Below, in pieces: positions 19,664 to 26,470 of a stretch of DNA of 44,511 bases. The stretch comes from Pirellulales bacterium (GTDB taxonomy: Bacteria > Planctomycetota > Planctomycetia > Pirellulales > JADZDJ01). The first letter of the stretch is position 1. The number at the start of each line of letters is the position of its first letter. Location: positions 1 to 44,511 of the forward strand of contig DASRSD010000066.1 in NCBI GenBank assembly GCA_035656635.1, read 5' to 3'. Under the pieces are notes generated by a model. The model made no database searches, was not told the origin of the DNA, and saw only the letters and a program-made list of their open reading frames with translations. The position numbers were made by a program, and so were the translations under genes.

Positions 19664-21157
19664 CTAGTCCCACCACCACTGGTCGGGCTTCAGGCTTTTC
19701 AGATCGACCTGATCGTGCGCCTGGCCGACTTTGCCGTCGTCATCGTGCAGCAGATTGTCGGGGGCAAGAGCTTTGCGGGGCTGAATGTTCACGCCGCCGC
19801 CGATGGGAGTCATCAAGGTATGTCCGCGCCACAGGCCATTGACGATGCAATCAACTTGCTGCGGAGCGACAAGCGTTTCGACATGATACACGCCTTCTTC
19901 GCCCAACAGCGGCATGTTCCAGCCAGACTTGCCGTAATAATTTTTGGCTTGAATGAAGGCGGCGGCGACGGCTAAATCGATGCAGTTTCGCAACTGGGCA
20001 TACACCGGCGAAACGGCCGCCAGCTCCGCGTATTTTTTCGTGAAGCCTTCGGTAAAGGCGCGGCTGGCGCCGTCGATGGTGGTGGACGGAGCGCGGGTTC
20101 CATCGGGGGCAACAACCTCGTCGGCGTTGACCAACTTCACGCCGTTGCCTTGCAGCTCCATCGCGCAATCGTCGGCGGTTTCCCGCACGCATTCATACTC
20201 GGGCACAAAGAACCAGCGCTGCAACGCATTGCGGTTGACTGCCACGGGATTCACGCGATCGACCCAGCTAATCAATTGCCTTATGGGTGGATGCTCCAGG
20301 CCGATGCCGATGAGCTTCATGCGGTAGTCTGCCTCGACCAGTACTTGTGCAAAGTGCGTATCGGCCGGCACGCCTTTGATGTGAATTTGCTGCGGGCCGA
20401 GGTTTTCTTTCAGCCCGGAGATAATGTACTGCGCGTCGCCTTGGGCATTTTCGGCGGAGAATCGCGAGCCGACATCTCGCAGAAATTGCTGCATTTTCGC
20501 CAGCCCTTCCTGCGTAGGATCGATCGAACAGCTAATTTGCGAAGTCAGCTTACCCTGCGGCGGGAAAGCCCGCAAGGCGGTAACCAAATCGTCCAGCTCG
20601 ATCACGGGGCGCAGCGAGTTCAGGCCGCGCACGCGGCCCGCTTGATCGGGCATCCAGCCTTCGGCCGGCCCGGCGATGACGATATCTTTCGTATCGGGAT
20701 AGTAGAAGACGAACTGCAGGCGCGTCAGGCCGGCGAGGTATTTCATTTCTTCGCTGACAGGCAGGCCAGTATCTTGCCGCTGCTTGAAGGCAGCTTCCAG
20801 GCGATTGAGCGAAATTTTGCGCAGCGGGCTGGGCTTCACGACGTTGGGATTGGTCGCCGCCAGTACGGCGCGGGCGGCGGCAATGCGCTGCCGCGCCAGT
20901 TGGCCGGTGACATCGGGAAACATTTCGGTCCGCAACACACCATTGGCATCGACGACAACACCCGCCGCGCCGAAGAGGTTGGCGCTCGTGCTGGTGCTGG
21001 TTGAGCTGGTCGAAGTGGACGTGGTCGAGGTGGAAGTGGATGTGGTGCTGGTGGTTTGCGCATGGCCAGATTCAATCTGCACAAGCAGGCAACCCGCCGC
21101 CACCCATGCCGACAGCCAGACCGAACGATAAAACCGTTGCAAACAAGAGCGAGGCAT
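19664..21157 (-). CDS. Secreted DUF1598-like planctomycete protein
   Basis: A 497-residue protein with a signal peptide (VWLSAWVAAGCLLVQIESGHAQ). Next comes a Thr/Ser-only tract of about 23 residues (TTSTTSTSTSTTSTSTSS...), then a long globular part beginning AANLFG-like sequence and VVVDANGVLRTEMF. RLQFVFYYPDTKDIVIAGPAEGW is the segment that reminds me of the DUF1598 family, found mainly in planctomycetes and without known function. No catalytic motif was seen. It is convergent with the glycerate kinase gene. The family name is from memory of the pattern and needs a profile search. Confidence 0.65.
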   Translation of the reverse strand: MPRSCLQRFYRSVWLSAWVAAGCLLVQIESGHAQTTSTTSTSTSTTSTSTSSTSTSTSANLFGAAGVVVDANGVLRTEMFPDVTGQLARQRIAAARAVLAATNPNVVKPSPLRKISLNRLEAAFKQRQDTGLPVSEEMKYLAGLTRLQFVFYYPDTKDIVIAGPAEGWMPDQAGRVRGLNSLRPVIELDDLVTALRAFPPQGKLTSQISCSIDPTQEGLAKMQQFLRDVGSRFSAENAQGDAQYIISGLKENLGPQQIHIKGVPADTHFAQVLVEADYRMKLIGIGLEHPPIRQLISWVDRVNPVAVNRNALQRWFFVPEYECVRETADDCAMELQGNGVKLVNADEVVAPDGTRAPSTTIDGASRAFTEGFTKKYAELAAVSPVYAQLRNCIDLAVAAAFIQAKNYYGKSGWNMPLLGEEGVYHVETLVAPQQVDCIVNGLWRGHTLMTPIGGGVNIQPRKALAPDNLLHDDDGKVGQAHDQVDLKSLKPDQWWWD

Positions 21158-24904: not shown

Positions 24905-26044
24905 ATGAAACGCATCCGATGGCTCGCGCTCGTGACGGCAATTACCGCTTGGACTACGGCCGGCCAATTACACGCGGAACCCCAACTAGATTGGAATCCG
25001 GAGCACACCAGTGTGTTTATTGTGGGGCTGCTCCAATGGCAGCATCCGGAAATTTGGAGTTCGTTTCCGGAATGCCAGAAGGATCGCCGCGACCAGCAGT
25101 TGGTTGAATACTTTCGCGAAGTCGGCGTGCCGGAGGATCGCATTGTCTATTTGTGCGATGCCGAGGCGACCAAAAATCGCATCCAGCAGGCTTTTTGCAA
25201 ACTGCTCGACGCAACCCATCATGGCGATTTGCTGATGTTTTATTTTTGCGGGCATGGCTGCCGAAACGCGGATACCAACGAGACTTGGTTTGCCAATTAC
25301 GATGCCGGCGAAACTTATGAGAGCGCCTGGAGCGTGCCCAGCATTTTTGCCGCCATCGAACAACATTTTCATGGTAATCGGGCGCTGTTATTGGCCGATT
25401 GTTGCCATTCGGGCGCCCTGTACGATGGCGTGCTGCAACACCGGGATTCACGCATCAAATATGCGACGCTTACCTCGTCGTACTCGCACAATACGTCCAC
25501 GGGAAATTGGACGTTCAGCGATTGCCTGTTGGCCGGCTTGCGCGGCGAGCCGGAAGTCGATTTGAACGATGACCACGTGATCGAACTAGACGAACTGGCC
25601 CACTATACCGAGCTGCAGTTGGCCTTTATCGAAGGGCAAAAAGCAATGTTTGCGGCGGCCGACAATTTCCCACGAAACGCGCGTCTGGCCGCAGTCGAAG
25701 GAGAAGTGAAGCCTGGCGTCGGCCAGCGGATTGAAGCTGAATCAAACGGCAAGTGGTATAAGGCGAAAGTCATCGACCTCGAGGAAGATCAGGTGGAGGT
25801 GCATTACGTTCACTTCGACGATTCCGCAGACGAATGGATTAGCCGTGAACAAACCCGTCCCTACCAGCCGGCGCAATTCGCACAAGGGGACAAGGTTGAC
25901 GTGCAATGGCAAACCGACGGCCAGTGGTATCCCGCCCTGGTACTCAAAGCCTGGTACGGCTTGGAACTAGTCCAATATGATGGATACGATTCTGCGAGCG
26001 ATGAGTGGGTCAGCTCAACCAGCGTGCGATTGCGGAGCCAGTAA
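24905..26044 (+). CDS. Secreted caspase-like (C14) protein with two Tudor/Agenet-like modules
   Basis: A 379-residue protein with a signal peptide (WLALVTAITAWTTAGQLHA). The caspase fold is marked by VFIVGLLQW, MFYFCGHGCR with catalytic His117, and ALLLADCCHSGAL with catalytic Cys167 in the DCCHSG motif usual for metacaspase/orthocaspase proteins. From about 270 there are two beta-barrel modules of Tudor-knot/Agenet type: GKWYKAKVIDLEEDQVEVHY..DEWI and GQWYPALVLKAWYGLELVQY..DEWV. These normally bind methylated peptides or nucleic acid; in a secreted protein the ligand is unclear. Target and trigger are unknown. No partner gene is adjacent; the ClC gene ends 172 bases upstream. Confidence 0.82.
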   Translation: MKRIRWLALVTAITAWTTAGQLHAEPQLDWNPEHTSVFIVGLLQWQHPEIWSSFPECQKDRRDQQLVEYFREVGVPEDRIVYLCDAEATKNRIQQAFCKLLDATHHGDLLMFYFCGHGCRNADTNETWFANYDAGETYESAWSVPSIFAAIEQHFHGNRALLLADCCHSGALYDGVLQHRDSRIKYATLTSSYSHNTSTGNWTFSDCLLAGLRGEPEVDLNDDHVIELDELAHYTELQLAFIEGQKAMFAAADNFPRNARLAAVEGEVKPGVGQRIEAESNGKWYKAKVIDLEEDQVEVHYVHFDDSADEWISREQTRPYQPAQFAQGDKVDVQWQTDGQWYPALVLKAWYGLELVQYDGYDSASDEWVSSTSVRLRSQ

Positions 26045-26166: not shown

Positions 26167-26470
26167 CTATGGGACAATCGGCGGATTGGAGAACATGCCA
26201 ATCAGGCCTTCGGCGGCGGTGGGATGCGTGAAAATGGCATCACGGAGCGCAGTGTATGGCATGTTGCCGAGCATGGCGGTTTGAACGACGTTCATCATTT
26301 CGCTGGCCTCGGCGCCAAAAACCGTAAAGCCGAGAAGCCGATCGTCGGGCCCAATCAAGGCCTTGGCGAATCCGCGGGTTTCCGACAGTGGGCGCGGCAT
26401 TTTTGTGCAGCTCGTTGAGCTGGTTGATTTTTTGCAGAATATCTTGTTCGAGTTGCTTGATTTCGTTCAT
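26167..26470 (-). pseudogene. Broken pyridine-nucleotide-disulfide oxidoreductase C-terminus joined to another gene start
   Basis: From 26400 to the stop at 26167, one frame reads ETRGFAKALIGPDDRLLGF, FGAEASEMMNVVQTAMLG and FTHPTAAEGLIGMF. This is the dimerisation domain of mercuric-reductase/dihydrolipoamide-dehydrogenase-like enzymes, with the HPT..E motif. Nothing upstream encodes the FAD or NAD domains. Instead a different frame starts at ATG 26470 with MNEIKQLEQDILQKINQLNE and runs into the remnant out of frame. The picture is a deletion that joined the first 23 or so codons of one gene to the last 75 of another. The N-terminal piece resembles the coiled start of DUF899-type proteins, but that is a weak guess. 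Confidence 0.7.

Follow-up and report, generated by a model that had tools for sequence, protein, structure and literature searches.

The locus at 24905–26044 (forward strand) raises the question of what a caspase-like peptidase joined to tandem Tudor-type modules would do outside the cytoplasm. It lies in a window of 44,511 nt, the whole stretch of Pirellulales bacterium contig DASRSD010000066.1 that was analysed. The open reading frame, Pfam matches, homologues and AlphaFold2 models support a complete gene with an ATG start, encoding a predicted exported caspase-fold protein of 379 aa with a tandem Tudor/Agenet tail.

The signal peptide proposed in the original prediction was borne out when the N-terminus was judged by eye. 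The segment MKRIRWLALVTAITAWTTAGQLHA, followed by EP, has the charged start (KRIR n-region), hydrophobic core and cleavage site (between LHA and E) of the Sec signal-peptide type, giving a predicted signal peptide at residues 1–24 (24905–24976, +). In the AlphaFold2 model of the full protein, pLDDT was <50 over most of residues 1–23, and the relatives likewise have hydrophobic N-termini. These features suggest export via the Sec route. As a composition check for recent transfer, the GC content of the gene (0.548) was compared with that of the window (0.570), which was not decisive, and a promoter and terminator scan gave signals no better than shuffles.

The peptidase domain, residues 33–263 (25001–25693, +), was identified by a Pfam search of the 379-aa protein, in which Peptidase_C14 (PF00656) scored 29.0 bits against a cut-off of 21.4; the same profile matched 20/21 family members. 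The full-length AlphaFold2 model, built with 21 homologues, had a mean pLDDT of 89.7 and a pTM of 0.87. Structural alignment of residues 33–263 of this model (VIA-align) gave Z scores of 20.7 to legumain 4nol (2.5 Å, 198 residues), 20.4 to metacaspase-4 6w8r (2.3 Å, 205 residues), 19.9 to metacaspase-9 and about 19 to caspase-8 and MALT1. In this comparison of folds, the model matched complete legumain, metacaspase and caspase folds up to residue 263.

The active site was examined in the family alignment. Catalytic H117 lies in FYFCGHG (25253–25255, +), and the DCCHSG motif (25397–25414, +) holds D165, an S1-type acidic residue, and catalytic C167. D165 and C167 were invariant in 26/26 sequences, S169 and G170 were likewise invariant, and H117 and D63 (25091–25093, +) were nearly invariant, or invariant where covered (24/24 covering sequences each). 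The positions originally given for His117 and Cys167 were therefore exact and are kept in every member covering them, and the metacaspase-like active site read from them is supported by the caspase fold found around both residues in Pfam and AlphaFold2 (Z about 20) and by the D-x-C-H-S-G alignment. An H117/C167 dyad within a modelled caspase fold points to a cysteine endopeptidase.

D165 aligns with the Asp two residues before the catalytic Cys of metacaspases (D-x-C-H-S-G; metacaspase-4, TbMCA2), and in TbMCA2 D211 and D95 are important for basic substrates (PMC8283722). D63 is a candidate second acidic S1 residue that may correspond to TbMCA2 D95, an equivalence that the alignment does not establish. 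Given the position of D165 and the role of D211 and D95 in TbMCA2, our best guess is that the enzyme would most likely cleave after Arg or Lys, as metacaspases and orthocaspases do. The protein resembles the metacaspases AtMCA4, AtMCA9 and TbMCA2 in its caspase fold, H/C dyad and D-x-C-H-S-G motif with an acidic S1-type residue, but differs from them in its predicted export, EF-hand-type loop and Tudor/Agenet tail, and shares only about 18% identity with AtMCA4 and AtMCA9 across the structural alignment.

The EF-hand-type loop, DLNDDHVIELDE, at residues 219–230 (25559–25594, +), runs into a helix at residues 228–243 and was absent from the original prediction. A canonical 12-residue EF-hand loop has acidic or amide residues at positions 1, 3 and 5, a hydrophobic residue at 8 and Glu at 12, and DLNDDHVIELDE fits this pattern. 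Motif examination placed such a loop 50–55 residues after the active-site Asp in 41/41 family members, among which one has Ser at position 3, one (L026) is without the tail and one reaches Pfam EF-hand_5 at 1.1e-4. As a control, 6/30 other C14 ORFs of the class carried the loop in a simple motif scan that recognised the Cys motif in about half only. The loop is fixed in the family, though not unique to it. Its complete conservation suggests that it probably binds Ca2+, while its presence in some other planctomycete caspases means that its role may be structural only.

A 2017 review described prokaryotic orthocaspases as lacking p10 and named MaOC1 as the only characterised orthocaspase, active without added Ca2+ (PMC5756287). 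By analogy, this observation in MaOC1 would count against a Ca2+-responsive reading, and it also makes the Ca2+ response of the present family informative. The fixed loop offers a simple handle on whether a prokaryotic caspase relative comes under calcium control after export. Like orthocaspases such as MaOC1, the protein is a prokaryotic C14 homologue with extra C-terminal domains; unlike them, it is predicted to be exported and has a fixed Ca2+-type loop, and it may differ further in its C-terminal half, which in the model aligns with complete caspase/legumain folds.

The tail consists of two modules. Module 1, a Tudor/chromo-barrel at residues 271–320 (25715–25864, +), has the motif W284-Y285..A287..V289...D309-E-W311 and matched Tudor_4 at 32.4 bits (cut-off 25.8) and Tudor-knot at 28.9 (20.8). 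Module 2, a Tudor/Agenet module at residues 326–378 (25880–26038, +), has the motif W341-Y342..A344..V346...D366-E-W368 and matched Agenet at 42.2 bits (cut-off 27). The Pfam matches and the full-length homologues lie far above chance, and the domain assignment is borne out by profile searches of the PDB and by both AlphaFold2 models, which are of high confidence. Modelled alone, the tail had a pLDDT of 91.3 and a pTM of 0.56, so that how the two barrels sit with respect to each other is uncertain. Module 1 superposed on the MRG2 chromodomain 4PL6 (Z 10.6, 0.8 Å over 52 residues, 31% identity) and module 2 on the UHRF1 tandem Tudor domains (Z 11.0, 1.3 Å over 57 residues), and in a whole-model Foldseek search the tail matched the FXR2 tandem Tudor and ADCP1 tandem Agenet domains.

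According to these models and profiles, the tail is chromo-like, of the MRG2/MRG15, UHRF1 and FXR2 type. The tandem Tudor/Agenet modules originally read by eye thus stand, both in Pfam and in the structure predicted for the tail. A plain SH3b tail appears unlikely: no SH3b family was among the Pfam matches, and the fold matches listed were of the Tudor, chromo, Agenet and MBT types. The modules share their fold and the motif HY-x-G-[WFY]-x3-W-DEW with the MRG2/MRG15/Eaf3 chromo-barrels, the UHRF1 and FXR tandem Tudor domains and the ADCP1 tandem Agenet domains, from which they differ in being bacterial, predicted to be exported, fused to a protease and altered at the last cage position (A308/S365).

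To what such a tail might bind was judged from its aromatic cage. The cage residues of Eaf3, which we take to be Y23, Y81, W84 and W88, correspond by profile alignment to Y285, Y301, F304 and A308 in module 1 and to Y342, Y358, Y361 and S365 in module 2. Three of the four aligned positions are aromatic in each module and the last is lost in both, leaving a partial cage. The lost site is position 5 of the five-position cage given in PMC5906684. Across the family this position holds W, Y or H in 14/25 members for module 1 and W in 18/25 for module 2. Methyl-lysine reading is therefore possible for the family, as judged from sequence, and weaker for this copy owing to the loss of the fifth aromatic in both modules.

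The tail is also acidic (pI 4.4), as would suit cationic ligands of any kind; such a tail would bind any cationic protein, and its charge is not specific evidence. The histone- or RNA-type reading that accompanied the original prediction is unlikely outside the cytoplasm. The published reading, in which the ligand is a cationic peptide of the envelope or matrix, is to be preferred: Kaur et al. 2018 propose methyl-lysine-like peptide ligands in the envelope and interpret chromo-like tails as binding peptides of the envelope or matrix (PMC5906684).

A partial cage also bears on whether the tail has an external ligand at all. The barrels might instead be autoinhibitory or a scaffold, folding onto the protease and being cut off or displaced on activation. 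We regard this as a tentative alternative, ranking next after our preferred reading. It would accommodate the loss of the fifth cage aromatic in this copy, the co-inheritance of tail and caspase domain, and the full-length pTM, which would allow a fixed interdomain arrangement; MaOC1, moreover, requires its catalytic part to be cleaved from its chain (PMC5756287). However, aromatics are retained at most cage positions in most family members, as ligand binding predicts, and modules resembling these are found singly in other proteins that have no recognised caspase domain.

To determine how widely the architecture is kept, a class sample of 398 genomes from 186 genera was searched with the protein at E <= 1e-8. 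Matches were found in 25/398 genomes and 17/186 genera, a few of them caspase-only, and relatives with the full architecture shared 31–62% identity. The gene was missing from two other genomes of the source genome's family that were examined. A tail-only search matched 30/392 genomes of a phylum-wide sample. Among 17 loci from the phylum search, all 15 full ORFs carry a caspase domain with an intact dyad, the other two ending at contig ends, and the same architecture with intact dyad extends to other classes of the phylum. The combination outlined in the original prediction thus recurs among other planctomycetes, both within the class and beyond it. Searches of bacterial genome contigs and plasmids gave no close relatives, with one weak caspase-region match each.

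In two genomes holding a close homologue (G212 and G073), second, divergent members of about 588 aa were observed (L028 and L029), in which the His motif reads SHG in place of GHG and the C-terminus is longer by roughly 200 residues, which form two similar halves. In one genome, four C14 caspase-domain genes lie within about 40 kb (G038:C1, about 3961631–4001612).

An operon or partner gene was also considered and rejected, as the neighbourhoods of 17 relatives (mostly 16 kb) share no conserved neighbours other than generic families, apart from a few pairs of related genomes. From the co-occurrence of tail and caspase domain and the absence of shared neighbours, the gene appears to be a stand-alone, patchily kept unit whose whole architecture is selected; by these sequence comparisons the architecture is old, and its distribution shows that it is dispensable. 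Immediately downstream of the gene, 26167–26400 (−) encodes 77 aa from the C-terminal end of a pyridine nucleotide-disulphide oxidoreductase (Pyr_redox_dim PF02852, 1.1e-9, profile 45–106 of 110), read as a gene remnant with no in-frame upstream remainder. The window also holds, at 19664–21157 (−), a DUF1598 protein (PF07643, 2.2e-30) whose start resembles a signal peptide and which has a Thr/Ser repeat close to the N-terminus.

This distribution lends no support to the predation or death programme that had been suggested for the protein, being patchy, dispensable and without conserved neighbours. Caspase relatives function in bacterial conflict systems, and the protein could in principle serve such a defence system, or one of programmed death, as its periplasmic arm, but we consider this highly improbable and the last in order of likelihood. 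Its one point of contact among the PADLOC defence profiles was a generic 'caspase' match, and the defence reading was rejected on that basis; the predicted signal peptide, the lack of conserved or defence-type neighbours in the 17 loci and the window neighbours of the gene (a ClC channel, LepA and metabolic genes) all argue against it.

A digestive role, in which the secreted enzyme would bind cationic proteins from prey, algae or detritus (histones among them) and break them down, is unlikely, though it ranks above a defence or death role. Predicted export and Arg/Lys specificity would suit it, as would the binding of histone tails by chromo-like barrels in eukaryotes. Against this, the architecture is conserved across lineages with no association with other hydrolases, there is no sign of a route beyond the Sec signal, and the acidic tail is unspecific evidence.

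Building on the computed domain composition, fold predictions, invariant residues and co-inheritance, our preferred reading, held with middling confidence, is an Arg/Lys endopeptidase that is exported, probably responds to Ca2+ and is docked by its tail on an envelope or extracellular peptide. After Sec export, the protein would work outside the cytoplasm as a caspase-fold cysteine endopeptidase through the H117/C167 dyad. An acidic S1 pocket, made by D165 next to the active Cys and perhaps also by D63, would direct cleavage after Arg or Lys. Further along the caspase domain, in its C-terminal half, the EF-type loop would bind Ca2+; as Ca2+ is plentiful outside the cell, the proposal is that the enzyme would be off in the cytoplasm and stable or active once exported. 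The two barrels may then dock it on a cationic, perhaps amine-modified, peptide of the envelope or extracellular matrix and so choose or concentrate the substrate. It would likely serve to process or turn over selected envelope or extracellular proteins, and nothing that was observed calls for a role in cell death. A bolder version is doubtful: a Ca2+-gated exported caspase whose Tudor-type readers select envelope or matrix proteins bearing methylated Lys or Arg, in a design predating eukaryotic chromatin readers. If this were true, bacteria would possess a system that reads and cuts modified proteins outside the cytoplasm.

The design had been called unusual, but in the sense of unreported this does not hold, since Kaur et al. 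2018 named fusions of secreted caspases and chromo-like domains, planctomycetes included (PMC5906684). Neither the architecture nor the core idea is therefore new. As in those fusions, a signal peptide (by eye here), a caspase-like peptidase and chromo-like domains occur in one chain. The available part of their main text contains neither an EF-type loop in the caspase domain nor the distribution of the present family, though the family itself may be listed in supplement S3. Relative to that part, the additions here are the distribution and co-inheritance, the fixed loop and the finding that the cage is only partial in this copy. Our literature search found no published test of enzyme activity or target for the caspase and chromo-like combination, and no papers under the term planctomycete orthocaspases. 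The gene is a compact single-gene version of this architecture, widely but patchily kept and small enough for expression, and a measured ligand would bear on the proposal, still open, that the chromatin readers of eukaryotes arose from envelope-peptide binders of bacteria.

Modules of the tail type were also observed in other settings. By sequence reading, three other proteins (L048, L049 and L051) end in a single module or have one close to the C-terminus: one is TPR-like, one is a membrane protein containing an SHD1-like stretch and one is an M56-like membrane peptidase. Proteins of 508–642 aa carry at least two separately spaced modules (G537:C36, G617:C338 and G501:C74). Up to six tail-type matches were counted per genome, the reader repertoire being expanded in some lineages of the phylum. 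An exported-looking protein encoded at L050 496–1683 (+) combines WGTHG and STCGSGG motifs with an EF-type loop and a pair of degenerate Tudor/Agenet modules; it has no Pfam caspase match and is probably a distant, diverged caspase relative.
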